IMG/VR virus record: IMGVR_UViG_3300035228_000757
Span: 1 to 41,493 of that record
DNA from: a virus
DNA: 41,493 nt
Direction: 5' to 3' (one strand)
Part shown: one piece after another, positions 4,360 through 38,600 of the stretch
Layout: each line of letters opens with the position of its first letter
Numbering within the stretch: position 1 is the first letter of the stretch
The notes under the pieces: generated by a model
What the model was told of the DNA's origin: nothing
What the model saw: the letters and a program-made list of their open reading frames with translations, nothing else
The model's database searches: none
Program-made: the position numbers and the translations under genes

Positions 4360-7300
4360 ATGGTAGAGACTAGAAGAATATCTACTCTTATTGAAACTCA
4401 ACTACCTGAGTTTATTTCTACCGACTACGAAAATTTTTCAAAAGTCGTTGAGAAATACTACGAGCAGTTAGAGTTAACGGGGCAACCCCTTGATGTTATC
4501 CAAAACATCGGGAAATATCGTGATATAGATTTTTATGAAAAAAATCTATTAAAAGAATCTACAACATTATCTTCTAATATTTCTGCTTCTGATTCTACAA
4601 TCTTAGTAGCAGATGCATCATCGTTTCCAGAATCTAATGGATACATTGCTATTGGAGAAGAAATCTTATTTTATAAAGAAAGAACAGACACATCGTTCTT
4701 AGAAGTTTCCAGAGGAGTTAGTGGAAACCAGAGTTTAGGTGATTTATATACTTCTAGCAATTTTGTTACTACATTATCTGCCGAGCATTTAGTCGGAGAT
4801 AATGTTCAGAATATTAGTAACTTATTTTTATATGCATTTGTAAAAAACTTTGAATCTGACTATCTTGCATCTTTTCCTGAGAAGTATTTAAAGGGATCAG
4901 TTGATAAACGTACCCTTATTAAGAATATTACTGATTTCTATCAGGCAAAAGGTACTGATCGTTCAATCAAGTTTATTTTTAATACTTTAGTTTCTAATGA
5001 CAAACCAGAAGTATTAAAACCAAAAGATAATACGCTTAAGGCATCTTTTTCTGATTGGGTCACTTCATATTCATTAAAAGTTAAAATTATTTCTGGAAAT
5101 CCAGAAAATTTAATTGGAGAACAACTAACTCAAGCATTAGATCCTTTAGACTCTTCTATTGGATTTGCTTCTGGTATTATAGACAATATTTTCGCAATTG
5201 GTGATGGACTTCATGAAATAGTCATTGATACCTCTACATTAAACAATGAATTTGATATTGCCTCCAAAACTGCACTTACTGAAAATCTTAATCTGGGAAC
5301 AACGATTGATGATAGAGTTAACGTCTTCTCTACAGAAGGATTTAACACTAGAGGAAGATTTTTAATTGGTAGTGAAATATTTGAGTATAATCAAAAGAAT
5401 GTTGATCAATTTGTAATTAGTCGTAGGGAAGGTAATTCTTCATATGCATCAGGAACTGATGTTTATAGTGTTTCTACAGTTACATCTAAGAATGCAGAGC
5501 TCTTAGTATTAGGTGTTTTATATAACTTAGATGCAGCAATTGAAGCACCATATTCAGAAGAGGGGGATAGAATTCAAATTTCTGATCCTGGTTTTATAAC
5601 TAGAGATCCAATTATTAATGATATTGTAACAAATCAAACTAGATGGATTTTAAGCACATCAAAAGCATCTTCTCTTAATTCTACGATAACAGGGCAAATC
5701 AATGATTTAAATGCTGATGTTTCAGCAGTCTATGAAGATGGAAACTATTATTACATCTGTTCTTCTGGATATCCGGGCAGAAGCATTTTAACTGCTACTA
5801 CTGATCAAACTTTAAGTGATCAGAAGTTAATGAGGTTGATTAGAAAGAAACCTTTAACAATTACCGAGACATATGCCACTTCTCAACGTGATGTTGGTAT
5901 TTTTGTAGATGGTAGTGTTGCTTTTAGTCAAAAAGATTTCAGGCAAGTCAAATTTGGTCCAATCAATACCTTCAACGTTATTAATAAAGGTGGTGCATAT
6001 AAAGGAGCTCCATACATATTAGTCAACAACAAACCTGGATTTGCACGAGCATTAATGTCTGGAGAGACTATCGATTCTGTCGAGTCTTTGTCTGATACAC
6101 CATATACTAATGTTCCTGAGGTTACTGTCACTTCTGGTAGAGGAGCAACTGGTACTGCAAAAGTAACTTTCGGTAAGATTACAAGTATTAAGGTTACTAA
6201 CGCTGGTGAATACTATTCTACTCCACCTTTAGTTGTAATTACTGACAGATTAGGCAAGGGAAGATTTGCTGAGTATAATGCGATTCTTAAAGATGGCAAA
6301 ATTGTAGAATTTGAATCTGTAGATCAAGGTAAATTCTACAGCAAAGGAAATGTTATCGTTCAAATTATTCCTGTTGGTTCTAGAGGTGACGTAACTTGTG
6401 ATATTGTTACTTGGACTAGAAATAGATACGATGTTCTTAGTACAGATCTTGATGTATCTAATGGTTATGTTTTTCAAAACTATAATCCAACTAGAGGATA
6501 TGGTTATGGAATTATTGCAAACCCAACAGAACTCAGAACACAATTAAATGATGATGGAACTAATCATTCGCCTATTTTAGGTTTTGCTTATGATGGCAAT
6601 CCAATTTATGGTCCATATGGTTATAGAAACCCATTAGATTCTACTAGTGCTATTAGTAGACTGAATTCTTCATATCAATTAAAATCATCTAGAGTTGGTG
6701 GTCCAATTTTAGCAGATTATCCTTTAGGATCTTTTATCGAAGATTATGAGTGGATTCCAGGAACCGAAACGGGTAAACTAAATTTAGATGAAAATAATGG
6801 AAGATATTGTGCAACTCCTGAATATCCAAGAGGAACATATGCATATTTCATTACTGTAGATGCTAATGATATTCCTGCTTATCCTTATATCTTAGGTCAA
6901 AATTTCTATTCATTGCCTGTAGATTCTAATTACAATGCTGATCTTACTCAAGATGATCTTCCTGCTAAAGCAAAAAGGTTAAGGACAGCATCAATAGAGA
7001 GCAATGGTTCTGAATCTATTCTTAAAGTTAATAAAACTATTGCTGGTAGTATCGATAATTTAAATATCGAAGATTCTCCATCAACATTCAAAGTTGGTAA
7101 TAGATTTATTGTTGAAGATAATGATACCGAAGGATCTGGTGCATCTGCTGTCATTGCTTCGGTCGAAGGAAAAACTATTACATCTATTGATTCTAAGTCT
7201 TTAGATCCAACCAATCAATACTCTGTTGCTCTAGTTAAATTAATTTCACCAACTTTCCTGTTTGAGAATGATGTAATTACTCAAACAGGTTCAGATTTCA

Positions 7301-10300
7301 CTGGTAGTGTTATTGGTGATGTATTTAACAGAAATGAGTTTGTAATTGAGCAAGTAACAGGAACATACACAGAAGGAGCAACATTAAACTCTTCAAGTAA
7401 TATTATCAATATTATTACTGATAGAAATGCATTCTATTCAAAAAATTCTACTTTACTACTTACAGATGGAGAAGACTCTGTTTTAGCAACTGGTAGAATT
7501 TTAGAAACTACCGCAAATCAAAATTCTATTAAAGTCGAAGTGTTGACGGGAGAGTTCATTGTACCTGAAAGTGTAAGTGTTTCTTACTTCTTACAAAGTA
7601 CAACGATTGGAGATACTGTCGGTGCAGAAGTAGTAGTATACTCAGAACTAAGTAAAGGTCTTGTTCCGTTTTTAGTAAAAACTGATGTTGCGCTATTGAA
7701 AACTGATGAACCACATAATGTTGGTGTTGGAACATATGTTGATATTGATATTATTCCTGATGTAGCACAAACGTCTACAGAATATTATGTGAGAAAGCGT
7801 TTCTATCAAGAAATCACTCTTAAAGTACCATCATATAATAGTATCCTAAAAGATACAGGTATTGGTAGAGGTGATCTACTAAATGGTGGATTGGACTATA
7901 CTTCTGGAGATTTTCTAGATGTAGAGTTAATTTTCTCAGATCAAAGTAAGGTAAGAAATGGAATTGGTGCTGCTGGTGATGCTGATAATGCCAGAGCAAC
8001 CATTAATGTTAGTGATTTTAATGGAACTGGGTATGGTAGTGTTTCAGACTTTACAATTACAACAAAAGGAACAAATTATATCAAAGGTGATATTCTAACA
8101 GTTTCTGATGCTGATCTATCAAGATTATCAAATTCTATCTCTACACAAAGACTAGCAATTAATGTTGATCATGTTGGTTTTGCTCAACTTAATACTAGAA
8201 TAAGTTTAGTTCAAGTAAATAAACTATCAGTAGGGGATCTTTTATTAATTGATAGTGAAATTGTAAAAGTTGATACAATTGACTCAGGTAATAATTCAGT
8301 AATTGTCGAAAGAGGTTTTGAAAATACAATTGTAGTAGATCATTTCAATAATGCTGCAGTAACATTGTATAATGGTCAATATAGATTTAATGCTAATTCA
8401 AGACCACTTGGAACAGGACCAAATGATCCATATATCATCAATTATGACTCAACTACTCAAAGAGTAATTCTTGCCCATAATTATGGTTCCACATCTCCAA
8501 GAGAAGTTACACTAAGTACTATATTCCAAGATGATAGTTCTCCAAGAAAGTCAATTTCTATCTCAACTGCCACTCCAGGAGAAAATAGATTAGAATTTTC
8601 CAAGGATGCAAGTTTTGCTACTTATGGTGTTAATACTGATATTAGAATTCAAAAATATTACAGGTATGTTTTTGACACCAGTCACTTCTCTATGCTTGGT
8701 ATCTTCTTAGATTTCTCTGCAAGTAAGACTGGAAGTATCTTTACAGAAGAAAAAGAAGTAAGTGGCATTCAACCTGGCAATAATGGTTCTTTTGTTGCTA
8801 TTACTTTAGGATTTGGACCATCAATCACAGGATTCGCTCAGCAACGATTCCCCGTTAACTTTGATACTTACTATTACTTTATTAAAGCAAATAGTGATGT
8901 TAATACTGAAAGTGCTGCTTTAAAAGTTATTGACGATCCGTTAACAGGATCTAAAGAAGTTCTCTTTGCTACCTCAAACAAATTTGTTTATCAGTATACA
9001 GAGGATCCTGATTACAATGGGTTAGGAACTCTTTCATATACTACTAGCTCTCCTTTTGCAGAGGGTAAAATCAATACAGCTAGTATTGATAATAAGGGTT
9101 CTAATTACAAGAGAGTTCCTATTGTCAAAGGATGTATTGTAACTGAAAATAATCAACCAACATTAGAAATACAATGGGACACACTAACAAGGTCTATTTT
9201 ATCAGTCAACGTTATTGATGGTGGTAAGGGTTATGTCAATCCACAAGCAATTGTAACTACTGGAGATGGATCTGGAGCAGAATTTAAAGTTTTTAGTGAT
9301 AATGGGGTTATCAAAAGAATTGATGTTATTAATTCTGGTAAAGGATATACATTTGAACCAATCATTTCTGTATACGAATCTAGTATAGTTGCATACTTTG
9401 ATTCTACAACTATTGGTATTCCACAGGATATTTCTATCGTTAAAAGTGGTAGTTCTTTCCATAGAGATAATACTTTACTTTCTGAATATACTTCTAACTA
9501 TGCACTTATTATTAAAGGATCTAGTAAATTCTTTAAAGGTGAAGTAGTAGAGCAAAGAGATGGCAACACTCTTATATTTTCCGGGTATGTTGCAGATAAA
9601 GGTTACAGAATTGGATCTAACATTTTAAGATTAGAAAAAGTTTCTGGTGTAGTTGATACTAGCATTCCATTAGTATCCGGTATTGATCCTTCTAGATCTG
9701 TAGAAGTTGTAAGTCTTTTAACGTCTACATTCGTTCCAAATATTGAGTCTTATTCAGATAACATTGGTAAATTTACTTCTGGAAGAGGTAAGGTTGGAGA
9801 TCGTTATCAAAAAATTACAGACTCTTTCTACTATCAAGATTATTCTTATGTAATTAAATCAAAAACTTCAATTAATGTTTGGAGAGATTTGATTAACCAG
9901 ACTACCCACCCTGCTGGTTTCAAATTATTTGGCGAAGTTCTTATCGAGACTAATCAAGAGTCTACGATGCCTACGGAGCAACCATTCTCTCCTAGAATTT
10001 CTTTTATTGAACTTTCACCTAAAGTAATTACAACTGAGTCTACAAGAACAAGAAGAGTTGTTACTCAGACATCAGTTAGAGCAGTTGATACAAATCTTAG
10101 ACGTGGCGTAGGTTCTGTTTCTATTAATGAGTATGATACTGAAGGTATCTTATCAAAACAACTAATTCTTCAGCAAGACTTTAATGGTCGTTATGCAACC
10201 GAAGAAGATTATATTGGTCCACTAGATTCTATTCAAACTGCTGTTGGTAACACAACTTTCTTCAAAGATAGTGCTAGTGCCGCATCTTCATATGTTTTGG

Positions 10301-13300
10301 GTACTAACCAGTCTGCTAAACTTTATGAAGTCAAAATGGTTAGAAATAACCAAAATATCCCAATATCTCAATGGCAAGATTCTGATCTTGCATTTAGTCT
10401 AATAAATCAGGCTACTGATTACGATATTATTTCTGGATCTGGTCAAATTGAAGTTGGTGCATCTATTGCATTTAGATTGGGTTGGTTTTACAATATTGGC
10501 GCTGGTGAATCAGGAATTGTTGGTGTAGAAGGTAATGTTGCCACCAGAAAATTTTGTTTGATGTTGATTGGTAATAATGTTGGTGCGGATGCCGAAGAAC
10601 TTACATCTAACTTTAAAGTTGGCAATCAAGTAAAACTATATGAAAATGCTACTACTCATTATACAATTGAAATTTTGAGAGTAGATGCTCCTGCCTACGA
10701 CTCTGTTTTTGGTGTTATCGGTGATGGTAATGTTCTTGGTAGAAGATCTTTCCAAATTCTCGACAAAGCAAATAATCTTGCATATACTCCATATAATGAT
10801 CAAGAACTATTCATTACATTAAATGGTGTTGCTCAAGAACCAGGAAAAGCATTCCAAGTTTCTGATTCTAAGATTGTTTTCTCATCACCCCCTCTTGGTG
10901 CTCAGTATCCTATTACAGGAGAAAACTTTGATGACACATATGTAACTGATCCTACCACATTCTTATGTAAGTCTTTCAAATTCAAACAGGATTCTTATAA
11001 TAGTAAGTATCTAAAAAAATTAAAAGATATTTCTGATAGTTTTGATGGAATTACTACAGAGTTTGCGTTACAATGGGAAGATGGAACTATTGTTAAGACG
11101 GAACCAAAAGAAAATTTATTAGTCTTTATTAATGGAGTTTTACAAGCAGTTAATACTGCTTACACTATTAGAAGAAGTGAAACTGCTTCTAATGCAGATA
11201 TTATAGTATTTTCTGAACCACCTAGAAATTTCTATGACGTAATTGATTATACTCCAGAACAATTAGATCAGAAAGAGTACTTCTATGCATATGGTGTTGG
11301 TAGTTACGATCGTCTAAAAATTGACGAACGTTTAATTCCTTATCGTGGTACTGGTCCATACCTTCTATTTGATGAAGAAACTGATATTGTTAAGAATATT
11401 AATGATAGTGAATTTGTATTAGTATTTGTTGATGGGGTTTTACAAAATCCTAATAGTTACATTTTAAATGGTCCTAACATTTCATTTACTGGTACTTTAA
11501 AGAAATTCAACCCAAGTACAGGAGAATCACTTGCAAGTAAGGTAGAGATGATTTCTCTATTCGGTAGACAAGTTCCAAAAACTCTTTCTGCTTATGATTA
11601 TGATAGAATCATCTTTAGAAATCTAATTGATATTAATATCACTAGAACTTTAGATACTGCAGCAGGAAATACTGAATATCTGCAGTGGCAAGAGAACTTT
11701 ACTTCATTAGATCCTAGTAGGGAAAAGAATGTATTTACTTTTGATGATGATGGTAATCGTATTATAATTGGAAAACTAAATGCTGTTAGATTTAATACTT
11801 TAGCAGATGGAAGTTCTACTGGTCTTGCTAAACCAGGAATAGTTGCAACTGATTTATCTATTGAAGTATTGAATGCTGCTAACTTAGTATTTACTACTAA
11901 TACATTTACTGCAGGACTTAGTGAAGATGATGAGGAACTTAAGTTAAGATCAATTTATATTTCTGACAAAAGCGATTTTAGTAATCCTGTTAGCTTTAAC
12001 GTTAATAATGAAGTATTTTCTATTCAGTGGTCATACAAAACAAACGAAGATGGAGAGAGGGTATTAAGTAAAGACTTACCTGCTTGGTTGAGTGGTTCTG
12101 ATCTTGGCGAACAAGCTTATTACGAAATTTATGATGGACTAGTTGATATTTCACCTGGAGACCAGATTATGGTTGATGGTGAAAATGCATACAGAGATAT
12201 TATATCTGTTCCTAGTGAAGTAAAAGGAAGAAATTTCAATAGAGGAGAAACTGCTAAATATGACCACTTTAGCAATATTGAAGTAAGTAACTACAATGGT
12301 ATTATAAGAGGTGAGGGACTTAGTGTTACATCACAAATTACCAATGGTGTAGTTACTAGTGTTGGATTTAGTGATCTAGAGTGGAATAGAAGAGATCTTA
12401 AATTATTCTTTGATACTGGCATTCTTTTACAACCAACTGCATATCAATATTTCGTTCCTCCACAGGTTAAATTTATTCCTGTCGATGGTAATGGTGGTGG
12501 TGCTAGAGCAGAAGTATTGACTATTGCTGGTCAAGTTCTTGACGTTATTTTAATTGAAGGTGGAAGTGGATATACTCAACCACCCAAGGCAGTTGTAACA
12601 AGAGGTTACAATGTTCTCCGTAAAAGAGATAGAGTAATCAGCAGCACATCTGTACTTAATATTGGAACTCAGATTTCTGGTGGTGCCAATATTAATGGTC
12701 AATCTGAAATTACTCTCATTGGCGACGGAGTAACATCAGGTCTGCTTTCTATTCTTACATTCGGTGTTGTTGGTTCAGTTGAGGCGGTAGCTGGAGATGA
12801 AATTGTTGTTCATGTCCAACCTAATTCAGAAAATTCTGGAGATAATCTACAAGTAGCTGAATCTGCTCTTATTGTTAAGAGAGAAGCATTCGAGGCAGTT
12901 GATCAACTTGCTAGCGAATTAATTATTAATGAGACTCTAATTACAGTTTCTATTGATAATCCAATCGCAAGCATCACTAATATCAGTCCTACTGGTCCTG
13001 GTGGCGCTGCTTCTTTGGTTGCAGGATTTGATCTTTATATACAAAAGGTAATTAATACTCCGATTGCTTATGTTCGCGAGCAGTCTTCTTCTGCTACTGG
13101 TGCTTTCTTAGATTCTCCATTATCGCAATCAGCAACTACAGTATATGTTACCAACACATCACTATTTGCTGATGTCGGAAAACTTCAAATCGGAAAAGAG
13201 ATTGTTACATATGAAAGAAAACTAGAAGATAGATTCTTTGATGTAACTAGAGGAGTAGCAGGTACTACAGCAACATCACATCCTGGTGGTCAGTATATTA

Positions 13301-13923: not shown

Positions 13924-13929
13924 TTTCTA

Positions 13930-14469: not shown

Positions 14470-14482
14470 TCACCTTATATTG

Positions 14483-14490
14483 TATAAATA
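14483..14490 (+). promoter_or_regulatory. T4-type late promoter (perfect TATAAATA)
   Basis: Exact TATAAATA, 34 nt before the gp8 ATG and 13 nt after the preceding stop. Confidence 0.85.
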
Positions 14491-14524
14491 AATCAAGACA
14501 ACAACGTTCTAGAGAAAAACTAAA

Positions 14525-16393
14525 ATGGCTGCAATTATTTCAGACAAATTTAGAATTTTTAATGCAACACAATTTCTAGAGTCCTTGTCCGAAGGCAGTA
14601 GTGATACTGGAACGGAAAGAACTAGAATGTATTTCTTTGTGGGTCGTCCACAAGCATGGAATTCTTATTTGGAGATCTACTCCCAGAATGCTACAGCATT
14701 TACTGCTGGACAATCTGTATATGTTTCGCAAGATACTAACGGAACATTTACCTGGGCAAACTCCCCTTTCAGAGCAACAATCGTTGCGGTATATGATAAC
14801 TCACTCATCTTGAGTACTGTTACTCCTTCCACAACTTCAACTCCACTTCCTAATGCATTGCTTGAAGGTTGGAATGGCGCATCCGACACTGGTGCAGAGG
14901 CACGTTCGGGAGTTTATCGCTACGCTACAGAAGAAACCCCCCCTACACCACTAGACAATCAATCTGAAAAGTTTGATGTTTACGACGAAATTATCGCTGC
15001 TAAGCGTATTACCGATAGTTTTGCTCGTGCTGTTGTTACTCGTTACGATTGGAACACTCTGGCAGCAGAACCTCGTTTCGATATGTACAAGCCTGATTAC
15101 ACGGCAACTACAACAGGTCAGGTAGGTAAACTATCACTTACTAGTTCTTCTACACTAGGTGCTGCTAAGTACTATGTAATCAACTCTAATTACGAAGTAT
15201 TCAAGTGTCTTTATAATGGTGAGTTCCCCGGAAGAACTGCACCTAACCCTCAGTATGAACCCAAGACTACACCTTCTGGTGGTCAAGGTACTTATTCAGG
15301 TGGAATTTTTACCGAAGATGCTGACACCACTGTATCGAATACTGCTGGTTATGTATGGAAGTATATGTACACCATTCCAACGGATGATGTTCTACGTTTC
15401 CTTTCTACTAACTTCCTTCCTATCAACCTTGCAACAGAATCTACAAGATCTGCTACAGTAGCAGCTGCTATTGATGGAGCACTTGAAATTGCTTTAGTTG
15501 AAGAAGTTGGAGCTGGTCTACCTAATGGTACTCACTTTGCACCTGTTAATGGTGATGGTCAACTTGCTGGTGGTACTGAAGCAGTAGTCGAAATTATTGT
15601 TTCTGGTGGAGCAATCACTTCTACTAAGGTAGTTCAAACTGGTGCAGGTTATACTTACGGATCAGTTGCACTTACTGACGGATCTACTACTGGTGGAATC
15701 AAAACTGGATTGTACTCCGATTCTGCTTTGACTAGTGCTCGTACTGGAGTAACCGGTACAGGTGCTGTTGAAATTGTTATTGGTCCAGAAGGCGGTCATG
15801 GTGGAACCATGGAAGCAGAACTTAATGCTAAGCGTGTCATGACGAATATTCGTTTGACATATGCTGAAGGTTCTGGAGATTTCCCTGTTGATAACGACTT
15901 CCGTCGTATCGGCATCATTAAAGACCCCTTCAGCTTCGGTACAACTGATTTCGCTACCTTAGACACTCTCAATGGTCTTTATGCGGTTAAAGTCACTGGT
16001 GCTACTGCAGACTATACTTCTGACGAAGAGATCACTCAGACCCTTGCTAGTGGTGGTACAGCGAAAGGTACCGTTGTTTCCTGGGTACTAGATTCTGGAT
16101 CAACAACTGCTGGCGTTCTTAAGTATATTCAGTCTCCTGATTTACATACAGATACTGGCGTTGTAAGAGCATTTGATGACTCTGCTGCTATTGTCGGTTC
16201 TAGTTCTTTAGCATCGGGTACAGTTGATACGGGAACTACAGGTTCTACTCTCTTGGGCGTTTCCTTTACCAATGGTCAAGGCAATCCTGAAATCGCACAA
16301 AACTCCGGCGATATCATTTATGTAGAGAATAGAAGACTAATTACTCGTGCTCCTGACCAAATTGAGGACATTAAGTTAGTAATTGAGTTCTGA
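14525..16393 (+). CDS. gp8: Baseplate wedge subunit gp8, enlarged by inserted domains
   Basis: A 622-aa protein against 334 aa for T4 gp8. Conserved blocks appear in the T4 order: DKFRIFNATQF (7-17), RMYFFVGRPQAW, KRI...AVVTRYDW (about 160), YYVINSNYEVFKCLYN, then GYVWKYMYTIP (about 274), NIRLTYAEG...DFRRIGIIKDP and the C-terminal GDIIYVENRRLITRAPDQIE (about 595-614), which matches the end of T4 gp8. gp8 is a peripheral wedge subunit that in T4 binds gp10 and gp7. The extra length comes from insertions between these blocks: about residues 53-150, a GxGY beta unit near 373, and about 490-590. The gene has its own late promoter and a weak AGAG ribosome site. Identification is confident; the boundaries of the insertions are approximate. 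Confidence 0.92.
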   Translation: MAAIISDKFRIFNATQFLESLSEGSSDTGTERTRMYFFVGRPQAWNSYLEIYSQNATAFTAGQSVYVSQDTNGTFTWANSPFRATIVAVYDNSLILSTVTPSTTSTPLPNALLEGWNGASDTGAEARSGVYRYATEETPPTPLDNQSEKFDVYDEIIAAKRITDSFARAVVTRYDWNTLAAEPRFDMYKPDYTATTTGQVGKLSLTSSSTLGAAKYYVINSNYEVFKCLYNGEFPGRTAPNPQYEPKTTPSGGQGTYSGGIFTEDADTTVSNTAGYVWKYMYTIPTDDVLRFLSTNFLPINLATESTRSATVAAAIDGALEIALVEEVGAGLPNGTHFAPVNGDGQLAGGTEAVVEIIVSGGAITSTKVVQTGAGYTYGSVALTDGSTTGGIKTGLYSDSALTSARTGVTGTGAVEIVIGPEGGHGGTMEAELNAKRVMTNIRLTYAEGSGDFPVDNDFRRIGIIKDPFSFGTTDFATLDTLNGLYAVKVTGATADYTSDEEITQTLASGGTAKGTVVSWVLDSGSTTAGVLKYIQSPDLHTDTGVVRAFDDSAAIVGSSSLASGTVDTGTTGSTLLGVSFTNGQGNPEIAQNSGDIIYVENRRLITRAPDQIEDIKLVIEF

Positions 16394-16396
16394 CCT

Positions 16397-16404
16397 CCTA
16401 AATA
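16397..16404 (+). promoter_or_regulatory. Late promoter variant (CCTAAATA)
   Basis: CCTAAATA keeps the TAAATA core and lies 34 nt before the next ATG, the same spacing as the site in front of gp8. The intergenic DNA also has a direct repeat ACGTTAG at 16405-16411 and 16422-16428. Confidence 0.6.
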
Positions 16405-22400: not shown

Positions 22401-24694
22401 ATGACACCGCTACTATCACAATCGAAAGTCCTGGTCTTCCTGGGGGAAGTAATTCTACTGGAAGTGTTGCTGTATCTGATGGTATGATCTATAATTCCAC
22501 TATCACTCTTTCTGGTAGAGGATATACAGAATCTCCATCTGTTGTTATTAGAGGAACTGGTGTTGGAAATACAGGTGCTATTATTGAAACAGAAATTGAA
22601 ATTACGGAACCAGCAGTCAGAATGGGTATTGCTGAAGATGTAGTTGGAGTAGTACCATCAACTACTGCTACTAAGTTTATGTTTGATTATCCTGTATTCT
22701 TACAGAATAATACAGAATACACCTTAGTAGTAGAAACAGATTCTAAGGATTATGAAATCTGGGTATCTAAACTAGGAGAGACTGAAATATCAACTAATAC
22801 AACTGTTACTACGAACCCATCACTAGGTTCTGTATATAAGTCTCAAAATACCGGATCATGGGTAGAAGACTTATTTGAAGATATTAAGTTTACTCTTTAT
22901 AGAGCAGAGTTTGATTCAACTAAAACAGCAACTATTGATCTAACTACAATCTCTTCTGGATATGAAAAAATGTCTTCTAATCCTTTAGAGACTTATGCTT
23001 TTGCTAATGCTAATGCATCCTCGCCATTGTTCAAAAATAATAATAATATTATTAAAGTTAGTCATAAGAATCATGGATTTGAAGATAGAGGTAATTCATA
23101 TGTATTCTTTAAAAATCTAGAGACAACTGCTGGATATACTCAGGGTTCTTTAAACTCTACTCTATTCAAGGTCACTAATGCTGGTCTCGATTCGTTTAAT
23201 ATTACTGGTATTGGCAGAGCAGCTGATACAGTATCAGGTGGTGGTAATAGAGGTCTTATTTCTTACAATAGAAAATATGAAAGACTGGTTGCTCAAATTT
23301 CATACCTCCAATCACCTTCAACAAATATCGATACATCAGTCAAAACTACTAACATAGTTCCTATTGATTCTAATACTGAAAACTTTAGTTCTTATTCAAT
23401 CTCAAATTTTGAGAAAACTTTCTTGAATGAAGAGCAGTTCTTTATTAATCAAAAAGTTATTACTTCTGATATCAACTCTTTATTGAATAATTTGAACACC
23501 AGTCTTACCTATAGACTTCAGTTATCCACAACAAAGAGTTATCTTTCTCCTATCATCGATCTCAAAACTTCTTCTATTAAAATTTCTTCCAATAGAATTG
23601 AAAAATCAAAAGGTCAAGAAGATAGATTTGGAAAGAGATATCAAATTGTTGAATTTTATCCAATTTATAAATTTGTTATTAGCGGAAACGTTGATGGTAA
23701 TGGTGTAAATATTAATGTTTCTCCTGGTCAAACAGTTGAAGGAAAAGGAAATGCATCTTTAAGTATTGATGCATCTGGATCTAAAGGAGAAGTTGTTGCA
23801 TATGAAGCTGCATCTAATACATTGTTTGTCAAGATTAAAAACTCTAGCGTTTTTGCTAGTGGTGAACAATTATTCTTCTCAGTTGATTCTCAAACAGGAG
23901 CAATTTTAGATGACGTAACATATGATGTCGTAATTTCTGCTGCTGAACCACAGATAGTTAATCCAACATTTAACTTTAATGAATTGGTAACTGCTGTTAA
24001 TCCTTCCAATACAACTACGACATATGATAATCTTATTGGAGCAAATGTTGTCCAATGGAACGTTCCATCTCAAGTATTAACTATTGAGAATGATAAGGAA
24101 CCAATTCTTAAAAATTATGTTAGTGATAACAATTCTGGATCTTTTATAAGAGCACAACTAGTTGCTGATCAAACAGCAGATATTTTTAGAGTTGGAGATC
24201 TTGTTTCGTGGTCAGGTTTGCAAGTAGGATATGAAAAATTCTACGAAGTTAAATCTATGATCTTTACTGATGGTATTGATTATGTTCCAGAGAATAGTGC
24301 TAAAGAAACATCGGCGGTTGCAAAATATACAACCAAAGAAATTTCTCTTAAAACACAAGCAACTGGAATTGATGTTATAATTACTGCAAATGTAAAAACT
24401 TCTGAGAATATTAAACTTTCTTATAAAACTAAAACTACTTCTATTCAGAAAAAGTTTGAAGATATTGAATGGGTCTTATTCAATCAAACTGGTTATGCAA
24501 ATGTTTCTGAATTGGCAACTCCTCAAAATACTATTTCTGCTCAAAAAGAAGAACAATCTTCTTATCAGGAGTTTAGATTTAGTATTGACAACCTAGATGA
24601 TTTTGTATCGTTTGGGGTTAAAGTAAGTATGGAGTCTGATGATCCCGCTTATGTTCCTAAAATTCAGGACATTAGAGTGGTTGCTTCTGCATGA
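16439..24694 (+). CDS. Giant DUF4815-type tail/baseplate structural protein (2751 aa)
   Basis: The N-terminus (KPYFEDFDPKKNFYKVLFRPGFAVQARELTTLQSALQ) is the hallmark of DUF4815 proteins, which occur at the baseplate or fibre-attachment end of many phage tails. Family features continue: NSSVNGLVSLKDVVDFRP, YLDRIDGVFLNTDGNF, YYLYIPAYTDSSRDVRI and RYTMKDISKLNQRLERLEYY (from residue 1392, a coiled coil), then PNPLAQTFKV and FATGIDLYIAKK. An unusually long beta-rich remainder carries GxGY-like units at about 1977 and 2018. By position (after gp8) it may replace T4 gp9/gp10 as the fibre-binding adaptor, but no sequence match to either is visible. Its TGA overlaps the ATG of the next gene (ATGA), a coupling signal. 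Confidence 0.88.
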   Translation: MPQNTNLNAKPYFEDFDPKKNFYKVLFRPGFAVQARELTTLQSALQTQIENFGRNIFKQGDLVVPGEVGFNNRLNYVKLSSVSEVAITDTAGNITYQKYDISQLIGLKIQGVSSSVIASVVATELGSDTESDTLYVNYLDSGASGDEERFRQGETLEVIGGVNSPLLVVGTDGVSLPTSISVVNPDTNIETFVDSPALGYASAVKVEEGIYFVNGYFVRNSEQLLVVNKYYDSPSAKVGFTIKESLVTPEQDASLYDPSQGYSNFSAPGAHRLKIDLTLVKYDYYELTDKNFIQLLLVKSGTIQKQLKATDFSLVEAAIARKTFDESGDYVVESFPLQVREYYQNNNNLGFYTADENNLVNGISANAASTKLLGSIGAGKAYIKGYEVKNKETKYLEIDKARDTIKRENETLKTSGLTSFFITNVHGTIPVNTEGADLTSYPTMYLNSVFNDGSVGLNNTESPTDSKQTINRRGLGFDVTEGVKTIYCSIEDPNYNIGNFTDATFQSFIPKLYYVKTRTGGGDVNEYGYVDTLAFSIVKRPEIDGTGVTDYLEITVKGNRGELDLFVLNYDLTNTNGNSTRKLYKSQADIESLITPIFQIRDYNETITPIVGISKPKNISLKKISSGFDRDTDKVLSKGKLAGGLEKYNSVFDLAYFAPQFFTRLVLEQSITGDDFTAGKYIYGSVSKAVAVVEGGTSASYSSINKLFVNVVFGEFQDGETIISETGATINIATDNTISHFIVTKAGDDYDQGVKIILDGVTYENNKIQLVVSGANAIERVYVNNRNAVRTKFSQPPVVELSGTVPSNVAIVVPVLFRNSVYTYSPKNIKSIFSEFGSGNSNKFSADIELDQTGYSLTTSVTDFTFSGTLGYKFIECNGFGGDASKNIVQGDVIQFSDTSGSVSKYVVQYATRPDGVKRSRIYLDRTLTSDVSNASVVLQKPVIENANATLVFPTGDKQIKTLIDSSEDSKFKYFFRRDFITTSSSASGNLTFAAQLPFGTQRFAPFSEDNFLLTVLETGVANHALDSAGQLVLFGGPLSVGDIVYIDKEYVTIAQTDSDLTAGSVTLNFPENHFGDIDAIRTALELRVANPQVGDPDITLPSSNFPKMKLTSTLEVSKAKPRLKTSIKNKQIIVQSGGTSVVPFRGQELDGETIQITSYADVFKLNYVYEGSISSPPSVDAGGNLISGTDVTNKYTFDNGQRDTLYDIARLVLKSGLEAPSGQLVISFDYFEHSQGDFCTIDSYLHEAGVGADEIPFFNSSVNGLVSLKDVVDFRPKVDNSNIIPGYQDQTFLSQTDYLSFSGVSGIPASTPADDSNLNFTIKYNKVQYLDRIDGVFLNTDGNFVVKKGNSSLDPSRPEIISDSIPLYYLYIPAYTDSSRDVRIIPVENKRYTMKDISKLNQRLERLEYYTSMSILEQQSLNMQITDDIGLDRFKCGFYVDSFESHKGDIKSEDYLCSIDTQQSVLRPQVSEDNFLVKEINTRNDQREVAGYVNNNGVLTLPYTDFRLLGNNFATKTINPNPFVVLQYVGDLSIDPNVDSWYDKSIAPLITDNNTNLFVPFLAKDNLDVAFASTYNSFVVTWTGTERSFFNINPLSKTNSEVSSSEVVDANVSSSSNISPFNNEVAKGVSTRTSRGKSVVSSLQYFARSIPVKFAIRRLKPKTEVFVYLEGKKINRWVVPDIRFTGIPGNSLSSFNAPIVTDENGNASGIVLVPAGSPPRESVIWGGDVETLAYDQNAEEVRITTGEKTLRFTSSSTNRDKNNVETFAETKFYATGLLPDNPGSIISTKPAYFKANEGTQLVNNNTEIEQKPNPLAQTFKVENFEEGVFATGIDLYIAKKSDSIPLRVYLTDVDSEKPGKNVIPGTEIVKEPYTYIKTFVSASVTILKGENISGVSTNASGPILRVLDKNNNELPVSEDNEITLTNEQVYTFVLSNNNGLSFIADETLKINSIVSFNNSNNTEVVARIAKDSGIVSALKVVNTGSNYDTATITIESPGLPGGSNSTGSVAVSDGMIYNSTITLSGRGYTESPSVVIRGTGVGNTGAIIETEIEITEPAVRMGIAEDVVGVVPSTTATKFMFDYPVFLQNNTEYTLVVETDSKDYEIWVSKLGETEISTNTTVTTNPSLGSVYKSQNTGSWVEDLFEDIKFTLYRAEFDSTKTATIDLTTISSGYEKMSSNPLETYAFANANASSPLFKNNNNIIKVSHKNHGFEDRGNSYVFFKNLETTAGYTQGSLNSTLFKVTNAGLDSFNITGIGRAADTVSGGGNRGLISYNRKYERLVAQISYLQSPSTNIDTSVKTTNIVPIDSNTENFSSYSISNFEKTFLNEEQFFINQKVITSDINSLLNNLNTSLTYRLQLSTTKSYLSPIIDLKTSSIKISSNRIEKSKGQEDRFGKRYQIVEFYPIYKFVISGNVDGNGVNINVSPGQTVEGKGNASLSIDASGSKGEVVAYEAASNTLFVKIKNSSVFASGEQLFFSVDSQTGAILDDVTYDVVISAAEPQIVNPTFNFNELVTAVNPSNTTTTYDNLIGANVVQWNVPSQVLTIENDKEPILKNYVSDNNSGSFIRAQLVADQTADIFRVGDLVSWSGLQVGYEKFYEVKSMIFTDGIDYVPENSAKETSAVAKYTTKEISLKTQATGIDVIITANVKTSENIKLSYKTKTTSIQKKFEDIEWVLFNQTGYANVSELATPQNTISAQKEEQSSYQEFRFSIDNLDDFVSFGVKVSMESDDPAYVPKIQDIRVVASA

Positions 24695-24885: not shown

Positions 24886-27800
24886 CGTCGCTAAAACAGA
24901 TACCTTTGAAATTCAAAGGAATAAAATTAATGACATTGGAGTACAAATTTTCAATGTTACTGCTGGTGGTAGCGATCTCGCCACAGGGGAATTAAAATTA
25001 GGTGACGGAACAAAACCTCTACCTTCTTTATCATTTACTAGTGATCCAAGTTTAGGATTTTATAAAGCAGCTCAACAAGAAATTGGGTTTGTATCTTCAG
25101 GAAAAGATATTGTCAACTATAGACCTGATGGAATTTTTTCTTTTCAAGATCTTTATATTAGAAAAAGGACATTACTTACTGCAGGTTTAGATATACAAGC
25201 ACCGGGTCAAAATTATGATAGTGCTAGTTATGCAGATATAAGTACAACTGGTGGTTCTGGTTCTAATGGATCTTTAAATATTGATGTAGAAGCATTTGGT
25301 GGAGTATTTACTTCAGTAGGATCTGGATATGGATCTGGGCAATATTCAGATATTCCCTTAGTGTCTGGTGGATCTGGAGCAGGAGTTATTGTTACATTTG
25401 GTACAATAGAACCTGTTTTTGTTTTAAATAATGCCGGTAGTGGATATACTAATGAAGTCTTCAGTTCTATTCCAACTACTAGTAGTGGATCTGGTACTGG
25501 ATTAGTTGTAAATATTACAATCGAAAGTGGATCTATTACAGAATTTGAAATTGATGAGATAGGAACAGGTCATAGTGGTACTGATACTTTTACAATTAGT
25601 AATTCCGATTTAACATATTTTGATGAACTGGGAGTAGAACAAACTAGTGGTGGATCAGGAATTCAATTTGGTATTAGTAATGATCCTACTGTAATTGATT
25701 CAGGAAATTTTGATTTTCTGAATAAGGGAACGGGACACGCAGTTAATGATGTTTTAACAACTCCTGGTGCCAGTACTAAAACTGGAGATCTCCCTGGTAT
25801 TGTTTCTGGATTAACTACTACTCTTAGTACTGGCAGTACAAATATTGTAGTTTCATCTACTGCTGGTATACTACCAGGAATGATTCTTACACAGACTGCA
25901 GGAGATGGTGCTATTGCTAGCGATACAACTGTTGTATCTGTTGTAAATGGAACTACACTTCAAATTAGTCTCAATCCCGAAGTAGATGGAACTGCTACTT
26001 TAGATATTGGTAGCCAAAATCTAAACGTACTTTCTTTTTCTGATGTATCTGATATTATTCCCACTAGTGGAATATCAGGTGGTGGATATACTGGTGTTGT
26101 TTCATCTGTAAACCCAGAAGAAAATACTATTGAAATTTCTCCTGATGTAGCATCTGGTGGTGCTACAGGAGTAACGTTTTCAATTTCACCCCCATATGGA
26201 TCAGGAACAGGATTACAATTCACAATTGATGCTGTTGGTGTTATTACAGATGTAGCAGTTAATAATGCCGGAAATGGATATGCTGTTGGTGATGTACTAA
26301 CAGTAAACCCTCTTGACTTAACACAAGCAATTGAGTATGAAGTAAATACTTTTAATGGTCAAGAAATTACAGTTGCTAGTGGAATCAATGTAAGTGTTGG
26401 TAGTGTTGTTAATGGATATACTCCAGCAGATAGTGAGGCAGGAACACCAGCATCATATGGAGATGATTTAGAAGTTATTGAAATTACTGGAGGAACTCCA
26501 GGAAACGCAACTTCGTTTATTGCGGATGGTGCTACTACATTTGAAGATGGTGGTCAATTTGGAATTAATTCGTCAGGAGTCTTTACTGTATCTGGAACAC
26601 CTGGAGGTGCATTTAGATATAGAATTAATACTGGTGATGGATCTGGATTCCAGACTACCCCAACTTTAACTTTATTTGAAGGAAATACATATTACTTTAA
26701 TCAAACAGATGGAAGTTTTGGCGTTCATCCTATTTCCTTATCTCAACATAGTGACGGATCTAGAAATGTAGTCACTGGAATAACTGCAACTCTTAGTACA
26801 TCATCAAATGTTATAGCAGTAAGTGATGCTACTGGTATTGAAGTGGGGATGATAGCAAGTGTAACTGGCGGAGTCGGTACAATTGGTATTGGAGATTTTG
26901 TTACTGCTGTAAATGGAAGTAATGTAACTATTAGTGGAAATCCTACTGGAGATGGTGCTGCTGATCTAGAATTTACTGGTGCTGAGTATACAGAAAATGT
27001 AGTTGTTAGTAGTTCGGGTCCAACAATTACGATAACTGCTTCTACTCCAAATCCATTATATTACTATTGCCCAAATCACGGAAATGTTGGTGGACAATTT
27101 ACGATAGATCCTAATAATACAAAAGTATTTGGTTCTGGATTAGAAATTTTAGTTTCAAGTGTTGATATTATTGATATTATAAAATCAGATATTGCTGATG
27201 GTAAATTTACATCGGTAAGTCTTGTAGCAGACTCTTCTACTATTGGAGATTCAGTATTTACTAATACTATAGCATCGCCGGTTGCAAATTTAACTAGTGT
27301 TGTTGCAACAAATATAAATGCTACTGCAGGGGCAAATTTAAATATTTCATCCAGTACTGCTAACATTGTAGTTACTGCAGGACAATTAGTATTATCAGGA
27401 ATTGTACTTGATTCATCATTAAATTCTATTACCACAAGTGGTGAGATTAAAACTACTAATCAACTTAATATTAACGATAAGTTGACTATTGTTAATAATA
27501 GTATTAATAGCACTTCTCTTGAAGATATTCTTTTAACACCTGGATTAGGTAGGGTAGCAAAGGTTAATACCACAACAGCATTAACTTTACCTGTTGGTGA
27601 TACTAATGCTAGACCAACAGTTGGTAATGTTGAAAGTGGAATGGTACGATTCAATACTGATACAAATCAGTATGAAGGTTATAGCGCCAGTGCTGCTTCC
27701 TGGTCATCTCTAGGAGGAGTTAGAGATCTTGATGGAAATACTTATATTTTAGCAGAAGAATTTGTTGGAGCTAATGATAACACTTTATACTTTGTTAATG

Positions 27801-29140: not shown

Positions 29141-29142
29141 AA

Positions 29143-29652
29143 ATGGCAGTTAATTTAAAAAATCTGGATTCTTTAGGTGGATTTTCAGTACAAAATACAA
29201 CCGTCGTTAGTGAAACTTTTGATGTAAAAAATGTCAATTCTTTAGAACTTAAAAATAGTTTTTATGGTGATAGTGCAATTTCGCATTACATTCTTAGAGG
29301 ATTAAATACAAATATTTTATCTGTTAATGATACTGGTGGTCAACTTATTTTACCATCAAATACAATTAATTTTATTGAATCAACTATTGTTGGTGTAAAC
29401 GATACTGGAGCAAGTGTACTGGTACAAAAACTAGAAAGTGCAGTTTCAGTGAATGCTTCTGGTGTTTTGGCAGAGATGGGTACAATGACAACTATTATTA
29501 AAGATACCATACCTATTACACAAACATGGACTATTAGTCCATTTACAGGAGGATCTGCAAATAGATTTAGTTATACCACCACAAGAGCAGGAACAACTAT
29601 TACTATTAAGTGGATTGCATATACAAGAGTAGTCACTATCGACCACACATGA
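29143..29652 (+). CDS. Small virion protein (169 aa)
   Basis: Preceded by a strong Shine-Dalgarno (AAGAGGT, 29133-29139, 3 nt before the ATG). The N-terminus reads MAVNLKNLDSLGGFSVQN and contains the heptad-poor, beta-rich pattern of fibre-associated proteins (SFYGDSAISHYILRG, LPSNTINFIESTIVG). The C-terminal half is polar and beta-strand-like, ending RVVTIDHT. No motif identifies it. It is a short protein between two fibre-like giants; a role as a joint or fibre accessory is inference. The late promoter of the next gene overlaps the end of this unit. Confidence 0.8.
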   Translation: MAVNLKNLDSLGGFSVQNTTVVSETFDVKNVNSLELKNSFYGDSAISHYILRGLNTNILSVNDTGGQLILPSNTINFIESTIVGVNDTGASVLVQKLESAVSVNASGVLAEMGTMTTIIKDTIPITQTWTISPFTGGSANRFSYTTTRAGTTITIKWIAYTRVVTIDHT

Positions 29653-29653
29653 T

Positions 29654-29661
29654 GCTAAATA
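29654..29661 (+). promoter_or_regulatory. Late promoter variant (GCTAAATA)
   Basis: GCTAAATA keeps the TAAATA core, begins 2 nt after the preceding stop and lies 37 nt before the next ATG. Confidence 0.6.
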
Positions 29662-29698
29662 GATAAGAGAATAAAACCTACGGCAAGGCTGAGTAAAG

Positions 29699-32600
29699 AT
29701 GAGTTTTCAGTTTAATTCCGATAGAGAAACTATTAGAGCCTTAGCGCCAACTCTAATCGGAGAACAAGAATTTTCTATTAGAGCTGGTACTGGATCTACC
29801 GAGAAAGAGATTCTGCGAACTCTCTTGGATCCAGGTACTAATTTGCCTCGCGTTGGTATTAATAGAACTGGAAATAGACTTGACCGAATTAGTATAGATA
29901 TCCAAGGTTCAGGATACACTTTACAACCAACAGTTACTATTGCCCCACCTCCAATTGGTGGTACACAAGCAATTGGTTCTGCTGTTGTTGACGAAGGTTT
30001 CGTTACATCTATTCTAATTGATAATCCTGGTGCTGGATATATAACTGCTCCTGCAGTTACAATTGCAGGAGGAAATGGTGCTGGTGCATCTGCTACTGCA
30101 TTTCTAGATACTGTTGACTTTGAACTTGATATTAATGGTGCTATTAGAACCTCTACGTCTATCATTTCTGATACGGCAAGAATTCTAAACCTAGATATTG
30201 ATAACTTTGTTACTCCTGACGCTAAATTTAGAGCACCACATCTCAAAACTTATCAAAACAATACTGGTATTCCTTGGGCATCAAATACCATTGTTCAAAA
30301 AAATTCTTATAGGTATAGAGGACCAAACGTTTATCAGTCATTGAATGCTGGTACAACAGGAGCTTCTCCACCATTATTTAAAGATGGAACTGAATTAAAT
30401 GGTGAAGTAGAATTCAAACATATTGGTTTCCGTGTTTCGGATTCTCTGGCATTTGGTTATCAAGAAACCGGAGATTCTGGAGAGTTTCCTCGTTCTATTA
30501 CTCCGCTACTTGGAGATAGATCAGATAAGATTGCTACTACAGAATACGTCCTCAACCTAGCAACGAATGACGTTGGTGGTCGTATCTACGTTTCTCAGCA
30601 GATTGGTAGTGACCTGAATGATGGTCGCTCTGCTGTTGCTCCTGTAAGAACAATCAAAAAGGCAGCACAACTTGCATGGTCAACTCCTGGCGTCAAGGAG
30701 ACTCTTATTGTTTCTGGTGGAGACTATGTAGAAGATAACCCAATCTCTCTACCACCCGATGCATCGGTTGTTGGTGATAACCTACGTTTAGTTATCATTC
30801 GTCCTGCAAATCCGAGAAAGCACATTTTTAAATTTGGTGACAAAAACTATGTCATCGGTGTTACATACAGAGACCAAATTGACTCTAGTGGTGATGCTAT
30901 TGCAACGTGGGACTTTGCAATGGTCTTTGATGACAAGCAAAGGATTAATTATGATGCTACAGTTAATGGAGATTTTGGAACCAGTTTCCCAATTGGTACT
31001 CAAATTTTTGGACCACAAAAATTCCGCGCAGTATTCCAAACTAACACTGGTCTATCATCTCTAGTTGCAAACTTACCAGTAAAAGGTGTCAACACTGGTG
31101 CAGAAGCTGTACTTAATAATGTAGTATTTACTAATATAACAGGTCCTAGTGCATATATTAATGGTGATGTAGAATTTTCTATTACTAGTGGATCATTTAC
31201 TCCTGGTGAAACGTTTTTATATGGTGGACAAGGAACAATTAAATGGGAACCTAATACCGCATATACTTTAGGTCAAGTATTATGGGTAGAAGATAATGTT
31301 TATTCAGTAGCAGTTGCTGGTACTTCTGCTTCTTCTTCTCCAATCCATACCACTGGAACTGCGGTTAATGGAACTACAGAACTTACATTCGTTAGAGATG
31401 CCTATGAGTTTGTATCTACTGATATTAAATCAATTAGAGCTGAGGGTGAAGTAGTATTTGAAAATACTGATCTAGACGATGCACTCCCTATTGTAAGAAT
31501 TGATTTCTCTCAGCAAGGATCATTTAGTGGAGGATATCAAGATCCAGGAGTTACCGAAGATCTTGGTGGTATTGTATTCTATACTAATGCTCTTGTAGGT
31601 CGTCAAAATGTTCATGAATTTAAAGAAGGTCAAGAAATTACAATTTCTGGTCTTCCTACATCAACACCAGATTTATCATTCCTTAATGGAAAGCAAAGAA
31701 TTTATAAAGTTATAGAAGATGCTGATGGTCGTTCTAGAAGATTTGTTATTCCAAAGAAAACTACATTAACACTCACCGACAATTTTGATCCCGGATCGTT
31801 TGCAACAGTTGCGTCTGCTAGTAAATCTATTACTATCTCGCTGCTTAACTCTCCAAACAGATTTCCAATGGCAAATCCTATTGCCAGAAGATATCAAGAT
31901 GCATGTTTACAAATCCGAAATAATGCAGACTTTATTGCTGACGAAGTAGTTGGAAAAATTAACGACCAATTCAAAAAAGATTATTACTCTGTATATGATA
32001 TTGGAGGCACTCCAAGTCAGCAATTTACACCAACAGATGTAACCTATGATCCTGCTACAGGAAACTCGGTATTTACTGTCGCTAATCATGGATTAGCACT
32101 GGGTGATGGTGTATCAATTGCAGATGAATCTATTGTGTTTACATGCACAATGGATGGAAATCAGACTGAACATGCATTACCTGAAACGGATCAATATGCA
32201 AGTGGCAAGTCTTTACCAATTTTAGCAAAAACAGCTAATACATTTACATTAAATGTTGGGGTTTCCGGTCCTGATGAGCAATTCACTCCATCTAACGCTG
32301 ACTATAATCCATCAACAGGTAATCTTGTTCTAACTATTGGATCACATAGTTTATCTGTTGGCGAAGGTATTGTTATCGATGATAATTCGTTAACATTTAC
32401 CTGCACGATGGATAATGACGATTCTCAGAAATCGTATCCACGTCCTGGTATTGATCCATTTGCTGGTAGGTCTATGCCTATTACAGCAACCACAGACACT
32501 ACCATCACAATAAATGCTGGTGTTTCTGGTCCTAATAAGTATTTCACTCCAGGCAATGCAACCTATGATTCTGCAACTGGTGACATGACACTCACAGTTG

Positions 32601-35600: not shown

Positions 35601-38600
35601 TTGGTCCATATCTCAACAAACCATATTCTACAAACCCAGTTCCTAGAGCACTTGTAGAACTTACCGATTCTGGTAAAATCTCGGAAGATCAGATTCCACC
35701 TCTACGTCCTTTCCAAGTCTTCACAGTTGCAAACCAAGCAGAAAGAGTTGCTATTGAAGGAGCACTTGCTGGTGATATTGCAATTCAACAGGATACATCA
35801 ACGTCATTCATTCTAAACAATGATAATGATAGTTTGTTTATCTCATTCAATGTAGATCCAACAATACAATTTACAATTGGTGATGTATTTACGGGAGACA
35901 TTTCTAATGGTAAGATTCAAGCAACTGAATATAGAGAAGGTGTAGTTTATCAGATCAACATTACCGATGGTGGTTCTGGATATGTAACTCCTCCGGTTGT
36001 TACTATTTCTGGAGGTAACCCACAAGCAGGTGCTGTGAGTGCGAATGCTACTTGTTCAATTGCAAATGGCGTTGTTGTTCTTGTACAAATCGAACTATTT
36101 AATAGTTATATCGGTGGTAAAGGATACACTAGTGCTCCTGTAATTACTTTTGCTGCTCCTGCTGGTTCTGGAACACAAGCACAAGGTAATGCTTTAATTG
36201 AAAGTAGACTATATGGAGATATTGTTAATAACATTAAGATTGAAGATACTGACACTATTGATAGTAGTGACGTTCCAGCAGAAGAAATTAACATTATAAG
36301 AGTTGTTAACACTTCTGCTAATGATACTAATAACTGGGTATCTCTATCCTCTAATCAAATTGCTGCTAATGATATTACATCAGGTGTAATTTCTACAGCA
36401 AGATTAGCATTTGCTTCGGATGCTGCAAACTCGTTTACATTCCTTAGAGGAGATCAAGCATACGCACCAGTTCTTCAATCTATTAAGGGTGCAGAGACAA
36501 GATACTTTGCTAAGTTAACTTCACAAGCAAGTAGTGGTAGTTCTCAACTTATTTTTGCAACTAATTCTAATGTTCTTCTTGGACACGAAGTTGTAGCAAA
36601 CATTAGTGGAATTCCAGCAAATACAAATATTTCAGGAATTCTTACTGCATCTGGTACAACTACAGTTAGTATTGATAACCCACTAACAGCAACAATTCCT
36701 GTCAATACAGTTATTGAATTTGAAAGAGGAGCATCACCACTCACTTTTGAATCTACACTTACACAGGGAGAATTTGTTGATAACGTTGTTATTGCAAACG
36801 GCGGTTCAGGATTTACTGATGGTCAATACTTTGATGTAGAACTAGATGGCGGAAGCGGAGTAAATTTAAGAGTCAACATTATTGTATCTGCGGGTAGTGT
36901 AACTGATTTAACTCTTACAAATTCTGGTTCTGGTTATATTTCTGACTTTACAGTTACGGGAGCTCCTGCTGCAATTGGCAGCGGAACATCATTACTATTA
37001 CTTGCTAAGATTAGTACAGTTAATAGACAATATGCAAACACTGCTATTGATATCGCGAGAGTTTCTAATCTAACAATTTCTGCAGACGAATACGGAACAA
37101 TTGGTGTTGGTAGATTCTATAAAGATCAATTCTTTATTGGAGTTAATGGAAATGGTTCCATCAAACTTAAGACTGGAGCAGATAGTGGATTAGATGCTGA
37201 CTTACTTGATGGAGCACAAGGTTCGTTCTATACAAGTGCAAGCAACCTATTTACTGGAACTGTTCCAACAGATAGACTTTCTGGCACATATAACATTAGT
37301 ATTTCTGGTCAGGCTGGTAATGCTATCCGACTAAATTCTTCTACATCTAACCCAACTTCAAATCCGACTCCAGATGCATTTAACGTTGGTATTATTGCAG
37401 ATACTAGAAACAATGCAGCAGACGCTCTATCTGATGGTGGCACAAGACACATAACATTATCCATTAGAAATGGCGGTTCTGGTTTTGATACTACATTCGG
37501 TGGTGTAAGACAACTTGCATTCACTGATAATGATAACATGTACCTCCGTGGTTCTGGTTCTTCTCTAGCAACATTTGGAACCTGGGCAAAAATTTGGTCA
37601 TCAGAAAATGATGGTACGGGATCTGGTTTAGACGCAGACAGATTAGATAGTCGTCAAGGAGAGTTCTATCAAAATGCTGTTCACATGAACGATGGTGTCT
37701 TCAGTGATGAAAGACTACCAGATCATCAAACGGCAAAAGATTTCCAAACTTCGGTTCGTATTCTTGATTGGAGTGGATTCCCAAGATATAAAATTCTTGT
37801 TAGAGACGAACTTTTAACATCCACTCCATTCTTAGCAGGACTAACAGTAAACTTATATGACGCACAAAGTCTTGCACAAGGTTCAATTTCTATTACTAAG
37901 ATCCAACCTTATCAAGATGTTAATGATGCCTTTAATAATTATACAATTATTACGGGAACTTTAACAGCTGGTTCTTTTAGTACCGGTGCGATATCAATTG
38001 GTACTACTGCTATTAATTACTTATTCCAAGACTTCAGTATTTCTGATCTTGATGATAATGCAGATGGTCTTCCTGACGGAACATTTGAAGTTAGTGGACT
38101 TAGTAGTGTTGGTGGAAATGCTCTTTTAAACTTAGGTAGAACCGATGGTTTCAATTCATCTCCTTCAATCTACTTTAATTCTTCTCAATTAGCAGCTGCC
38201 AATTATAATTCCGCATTTATTGCTACAGGTGGAAATGCTACTGATAGTAGTGGCGCACTCGAAATTAAAGTTAGTGGTCCAGATGCTCTCACAATATTAG
38301 GAAATAAAATTTGGAACGAAGGAAACGTTACATTTAATTCCTCTAATGTTGTTTCCACTGCTGTTATTCGTGATGCATCGGGTGACTTTGCTGCTGGAAC
38401 AATTACTGCTTCCGTAACTGGTGCAGCATCCTTGAACGTACTCAAGGCGGGAGACACCATGTCAGGATCGCTGACTATTGGTGGAGTTACAGCTGCTAAT
38501 CAAGCACTTCAAACTTCTGGAAGAGCAGATTTCCTGAGTAATATCACAGTAGGTACTGATGTACAAGTAGGAACAAGCACATTGTTTGTAGATTCTACGA

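Follow-up and report, generated by a model that had tools for sequence, protein, structure and literature searches.

Small beta-domains that occur sporadically in many virion proteins and are exchanged horizontally are known from the immunoglobulin-like (Ig-like) domains of phages, such as Hoc and the additions to sheath and tail proteins (PMC9230969). Extra sheath domains are thought to be dispensable for the formation of the T4 sheath and have been proposed to stabilize the tail or to aid adhesion (PMC9230969). A second described system is domain I of the T4 tail sheath protein gp18 (Pfam PF22639, Gp18_dom_I), a protruding insertion of about 90 residues which has been solved as a six-stranded beta-barrel plus a helix. 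Here we analyze a repeated unit of about 40 residues in IMG/VR virus record IMGVR_UViG_3300035228_000757, whose whole 41,493 nucleotides (41.5 kb) are called the window below and represent a T4-like cyanomyovirus close to the Synechococcus phages Sf-CH11 and S-PM2. The unit is present in about 20 to 25 copies in register in five window proteins of 3187, 622 (gp8), 2751, 1422 and 3321 amino acids (aa). Our reading, to which we assign a probability of about 0.62, is that two units would form a six-stranded barrel like gp18 domain I, which was inserted into many virion proteins, exchanged between phages and serves as an exposed accessory contact domain.

The units span positions 5953-37015 and follow the pattern GxVxxIxVxxxGxGY-xx[PP/GD]xVTI-xGGxGxGAxAxV, and GxGY motifs flanked by strands are scattered over all five proteins. 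Because the iterated profile which recovered about 20 units had been trained on those window units themselves, the test was repeated with leave-one-protein-out and distant profiles. Leave-one-protein-out profiles built from the window alone detected units in the 3321-, 3187-, 2751- and 1422-aa proteins with real but modest support, while gp8 was not significant at 1.0 bit. Since this approach was too weak for gp8, relatives were used to build a distant profile of 71 units from P-SSM4, P-HM2, P-SSM2, SynMITS9220M01, gp14 of S-H9-2 and Stenotrophomonas and Xanthomonas phages, which contained no window unit. It gave about 20 window matches with 4 to 33 bits, compared to maxima of 4.5 bits for block-shuffled window proteins (20 replicates) and 0.9 bits for reversed proteins. 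The similarity therefore exceeds composition and keeps a consistent register, which bears out the recurring unit of about 40 residues that a first-pass annotation had seen in the five proteins and speaks against the purely compositional resemblance it had considered. A 54-sequence profile with one row from the window yielded 13 window matches at E<=0.001, the best at 7e-14. In the proteins tested, the units stayed below the cut-off of every Pfam and NCBIfam model, and DUF7210 gave a single weak window match. Sequence searches of the PDB with two unit profiles returned chance matches only (BURRH repeats, antibodies, pullulanase), and a plasmid search with the unit gave no match. No prior description was found in the literature searched by motif string and topic, although one may exist elsewhere.

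Over 214 unit clusters, the consensus reads G-x-[VI]-x-x-[VI]-x-[IV]-T-N-x-G-[ST]-[GN]-Y-T-x-[GP]-[PD]-x-[LV]-T-[IV], after which come a loop rich in Gly and the third strand. Because P and D are equally frequent at the key position (30% each), PP and GD represent two flavours of the unit. The PP motif of the first-pass annotation thus describes an existing flavour, but GD is just as common and the literal motif is rare, with four matches to GxGYxx[PA]P in the window proteins. The start-to-start spacing of units peaks at 40-44 aa, and the tandem arrays comprise 322 pairs versus 57 longer ones, two units (about 80 aa) being the commonest arrangement. It appears to be this two-unit domain which is portable, and not the single 40-aa unit. 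The gp8 protein illustrates this pairing. Its alignment with P-SSM4 and P-HM2 reveals two adjacent units, both of which retain GSGY in these phages, whereas the first unit of the window protein is eroded from GSGY to GAGL; the single copy reported for gp8 by the first-pass annotation is therefore that half of a conserved pair which can still be detected. The site is conserved in all cyanophage gp8 proteins aligned and in Melnitz, and an AlphaFold2 model of gp8 residues 320-420 is all-beta, with mostly 76-93 in the predicted local distance difference test (pLDDT), and forms one region over both units.

The units were also recorded in other phages, with 25 per phage record in P-SSM4, 24 in P-HM2, 22 in S-H9-2, 20 in S-PM2, 15 in SynMITS9220M01, 13 in Sf-CH11, nine in P-SSM2, seven in Xanthomonas phage X1, four in Stenotrophomonas phage Mendera, one in Melnitz and none in T4 (all at E<=0.001). 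The carrier proteins include the neck protein gp14, the tail sheath protein gp18 (residues 252-280 in S-PM2 and a clear pair at aa ~237-317 in Mendera), gp8, gp7-like giants and a 216-aa Xanthomonas phage protein. The latter, encoded by phage X1 (L333:5728-6378), contains a very consensus-like pair that seems to split a PKD/Ig-like segment (W.FG ... FPAGTHSVKAVVSYVGG), and it has no Pfam match.

Gain and loss of the pair are most evident in gp14, which has been detected in purified S-SM1 virions (PMC3037559). In a set of 123 distinct complete proteins, the length is 292-308 aa (256 aa in T4) when units are lacking and 372-376 aa when two are present, a difference of about 80 residues. There are no intermediate lengths; one protein has three units and another four, and a few of 372-376 aa score one unit only. 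The insert occupies one site, between F.VGE.V.G and A.VKSWD, and supported branches of a tree of the gp14 core, calculated after removing the insert columns, force at least five changes of this cassette. The nearest relative of the window, contig IMGVR_3300005738_000002 (gp8 99%), has a gp14 of the unit-free length (294 aa). Over its first 480 bases, the S-H9-2 gp14 gene shares mostly 77-98% DNA identity with a relative that lacks the insert. The value drops to 55-65% in the blocks on either side of the cassette, most of which are 73-87% identical to a distant cassette carrier. The cassette region of S-H9-2 therefore looks like an allele block exchanged between phages. The number of units also differs between relatives in the family of 1251-, 1422- and 1691-aa proteins (orthologues from S-PM2 and S-H9-2 versus the window 1422-aa protein), so that presence and absence do vary among close relatives, a point which the first-pass annotation had proposed to check. 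The S-H9-2 orthologue (L086:26492-31567) carries an extra block of about 150 aa (VVTANGTTNYIIDGNAQPTLSLTRGNTYRFDVS...) between units, which the window, Sf-CH11 and S-PM2 lack at this position.

Paralogous window units share at most 66% DNA identity, compared to a maximum of 60% for random segments. The mobile module claimed in the first-pass annotation is supported in that it occurs in many virion proteins and varies between close relatives, as seen in gp14, the 1422-aa family and the Mendera sheath, whereas recombination within the genome is not supported. Sequence comparison supports a movement of the cassette between phages, with exchange seen at gp14, and does not support recent intragenomic copying; movement from gene to gene is suggested by the distribution of the units and would be old.

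Several observations link the pair to T4 gp18 domain I. When 13 T4 tail and neck proteins were searched with the distant profile, gp18 residues 99-125 were the sole match (15.3 bits; next, −0.3), and conversely the Pfam profile PF22639 weakly matched unit positions in P-HM2 (E 0.001), P-SSM4 (E 0.009) and Mendera (E 2.6e-6). The similarity between unit and PF22639 profiles is thus two-way and at the same residues. No cyanophage match reached the curated cut-off of 27 bits, and Mendera was the best outside T4 with 24.7 bits. Domain I contains the unit motif STPGSNYAVGDKITV at about 100-120 and resembles the pair in size, in the predicted number of strands and as an insertion into a virion protein; unlike the pair, its second half is barely recognized by the unit profile, and it occurs once in T4 versus 9-25 detected units per genome in the cyanophages tested. 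The position in the tail sheath is not shared either, as the window carriers are baseplate or tail proteins and the Mendera sheath pair lies elsewhere. We consider the pair a relative of domain I with moderate confidence. An AlphaFold2 model of residues 2040-2450 of the 3321-aa protein showed about six strands per pair at pLDDT 81-90 for both pairs, with an overall predicted template modelling score (pTM) of 0.32. Foldseek searches of the PDB with the 3321-aa pairs and gp8 gave weak matches (E about 0.1-3) rich in EF-Tu, RimM and GcvT, which we take to be six-stranded barrels. Among the weak structural matches to the two models, EF-Tu/RIFT and GcvT-type barrels were the most frequent, but they lack sequence similarity to the units and may share barrel geometry only. 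We infer a closed barrel fold for the pair. Foldseek matches to microtubule proteins, whose root-mean-square deviations exceeded 20, were discarded, and a weak tail-sheath match (9x3p) pointed to gp18 but has itself no significant unit. A structure search of BFVD returned 45 matches at E<=0.001, the majority of them to proteins from cyanophages and uncultured phages. Two BFVD matches were to predicted proteins of Sylvanvirus, a giant virus (A0A3G5AH46, E 9e-6; A0A3G5AH06, E 1e-3), and could reflect shared repeats or composition.

According to our proposal, each unit would contribute three strands (VxxIxV, VTI, AxAxV), which the GxGY turn and the Gly-rich loop connect, and thus one half of a barrel of about 80-90 residues made by two tandem units of about 40 residues. 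The barrel would be inserted into loops of virion proteins (gp8, gp14, gp18, gp7-like and tail-fibre-like giants) of T4-like cyanophages and some proteobacterial relatives, and be gained, lost and exchanged by ordinary phage recombination at the insertion sites. As an exposed domain, it may add contact surface to the virion, either towards neighbouring subunits, stabilizing tail or neck, or weakly towards the cell surface, like phage Ig-like domains. Ig-like domains are exchanged between phages (PMC9230969), and weak binding to cell-surface carbohydrate is a further trait of this class. The units share with them the sporadic insertion into several virion proteins and the exchange, but they differ in being a repeat-built pair with a GxGY motif, and Pfam Ig-like models did not match them. 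The pair comes and goes between close relatives and so behaves as an optional addition to the surface, not as a core component; its surface exposure and accessory function are what we infer, and a dispensable, exchangeable contact domain fits the data best. Weak adhesion and stabilization of the tail or between subunits appear about equally likely.

Some results weigh against the proposal of an exchanged domain I-like barrel. Lone unit detections (400) outnumber the 379 arrays, so pairing is shown for only part of the units, although some lone detections are halves of pairs as in gp8. The gp8 pair is fixed in the aligned set and hence not mobile everywhere. Outside the pairs, the AlphaFold2 models are poor (pTM 0.32 and 0.41), and Foldseek found no PDB match below E 0.001 and no gp18 among the 50 matches listed. 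An hhalign comparison hit the same gp18 residues as the distant profile with only 21% probability, and PF22639 did not match the window at E<=10. The strongest competing explanation, which we hold to be quite possible but somewhat short of even odds, is that the pair is purely architectural and acts as a rigid spacer or clamp in tail and neck with no host contact. This would agree with the finding that the pair is not confined to fibre-like proteins but also occurs in those of the neck, sheath and wedge, and with the proposed role of extra sheath domains as tail stabilizers (PMC9230969). Moreover, the gp14 cassette aligns to the C-terminal region of T4 gp14 (178-256) which contacts gp15 (PMC12270204). 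Because the pair is freely absent from gp14 of close relatives, however, it is not needed for assembly.

The remaining alternatives concern the origin of the units. An early origin of the pair in gp14, gp18 and gp8, followed by loss and divergence alone without movement between genes, appears unlikely. Such an ancestry would explain why S-PM2, Sf-CH11 and S-H9-2 contain most of the window units at corresponding positions, why the gp8 pair is fixed in all cyanophages sampled and why recent paralogous copies are missing. Nevertheless, the insertion sites differ (aa 237-317 in the Mendera sheath versus 98-188 for T4 domain I), the gp14 arrays of P-SSM2 and SynMITS start before the hairpin hosting the S-H9-2 cassette, and the repeated gp14 switches and mosaic flanks add to this, so that movement is needed at least between phages. 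The hopping of a single 40-aa unit within the genome by intragenomic recombination, as suggested in the first-pass annotation, is largely refuted for recent events and seems very improbable: similar units do occur in five proteins of one genome, and the best paralogous pair (units 99 and 2080 of the 3321-aa protein) reaches 61% protein identity, but the best paralogous DNA identity barely leaves the random background and gp14 gains or loses two units together. Least credible is a convergence of Gly/Thr/Val-rich beta sequence without common descent. The proteins that carry the units are indeed rich in G, T, V and S, and identity to one reference unit is no higher than 14-41%; yet the distant profile separates them from reversed and block-shuffled sequence, and tblastn matched a Xanthomonas phage protein at E 1e-10.

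Table 1. Units in the window proteins; bits are scores of the distant profile, E-values those of the 54-sequence profile.
Feature	Position	Strand	Units	Remarks
3187-aa protein, pair A	5953..6294	+	aa 532-603 (divergent, longer), 4.4 bits; aa 604-645 (GKITSIKVTNAGEYYSTPPLVVITDRLGKG), 25.8 bits	Orthologues in S-PM2, S-H9-2, Sf-CH11
3187-aa protein, pair B, GD flavour	7873..8160	+	aa 1172-1224, 7.3 bits; aa 1225-1267, 16.7 bits, E 1.4e-11	
3187-aa protein, triple C	9061..9423	+	aa 1568-1608, 5.4 bits; aa 1610-1647, 9.4 bits; aa 1648-1688, 11.3 bits	Region also matched by PHROG models of gp8 (phrog_438) and neck Hc2 (phrog_460)
3187-aa protein, pair D	12442..12651	+	aa 2695-2720 (partial), 5.7 bits; aa 2723-2764, 7.8 bits	
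gp8 baseplate wedge, pair	15470..15730	+	aa ~316-358 (eroded; GAGLPNGTHFAPVNGDG); aa 361-402 (GAGYTYGSVAL)	From gp8 alignment
2751-aa protein, pair	22355..22603	+	aa 1973-2013, 6.3 bits; aa 2014-2055, 13.5 bits	Also in S-PM2, S-H9-2, Sf-CH11
1422-aa protein, three tandem units	25166..25525	+	aa 99-140; aa 141-176; aa 177-218	Profile matches
1422-aa protein, weak fourth unit	25529-25612			
1422-aa protein, partial and full unit	26153..26359	+	aa 428-454 (partial); aa 455-496 (GNGYAVGDVLTVNPLDL), 24.5 bits, E 1e-10	
3321-aa protein, pair	29870..30124	+	aa 58-98, 21.4 bits; aa 99-142, 33.0 bits	tblastn matches of aa 58-142 to Stenotrophomonas phage tail sheath and Xanthomonas phage X1
3321-aa protein, pair	35936..36202	+	aa 2080-2121, 28.6 bits; aa 2128-2168, 20.5 bits	AlphaFold2 pLDDT 81-90; matched by PHROG head-closure Hc2 model
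3321-aa protein, pair	36767..37015	+	aa 2357-2397, 6.5 bits; aa 2398-2439, 21.8 bits	AlphaFold2 pLDDT 83-90

A second recurrent-looking motif, F..GE.[VI].G..SG..A.V..W[DT]....L.V, adjoins paired units in several virion proteins, namely in gp8 at aa ~484-540 (window 15974-16144), in the 3321-aa protein at aa ~2055-2075 and at the C-terminus of gp14 (L084:66-941, aa ~190-250); a simple pattern scan of the window gave no strict match. The window shares with S-PM2 the order of the large genes, which code for gp25, gp6, the 3187-aa protein, a 179-aa protein, gp8, the 2751-aa protein (DUF4815/VrlC-like), the 1422-aa protein, a 169-aa protein and the 3321-aa protein. The 3187-aa protein of the baseplate region additionally contains a clear YHYH domain (PF14240, E 4.5e-29) at aa 691-838 (window 6430-6873). 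A 165-aa protein encoded at 40762-41259 matched PHROG 274, labelled as DNA endonuclease V (E 7.5e-38). This label is probably wrong, because the only Pfam match is a weak one to 2-oxoglutarate (2OG)-Fe(II) oxygenases and the Sf-CH11 genes at this position are annotated as prolyl hydroxylase/2OG oxygenases.

For the marine T4-like phages, the analysis would mean that they use an uncatalogued, promiscuous two-repeat barrel related to gp18 domain I as a general plug-in domain of the virion where other phages have Ig-like domains, with its presence in the neck switching repeatedly among close relatives, a view to which we give an even chance. The giant virion proteins of cyanomyoviruses are mostly unannotated, and a defined block would allow their domain architecture to be parsed. 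Domain I of T4 gp18 would be tied to a family of shuffled domains, and gp14 would provide a natural comparison between forms of a conserved neck protein that have or lack the pair.

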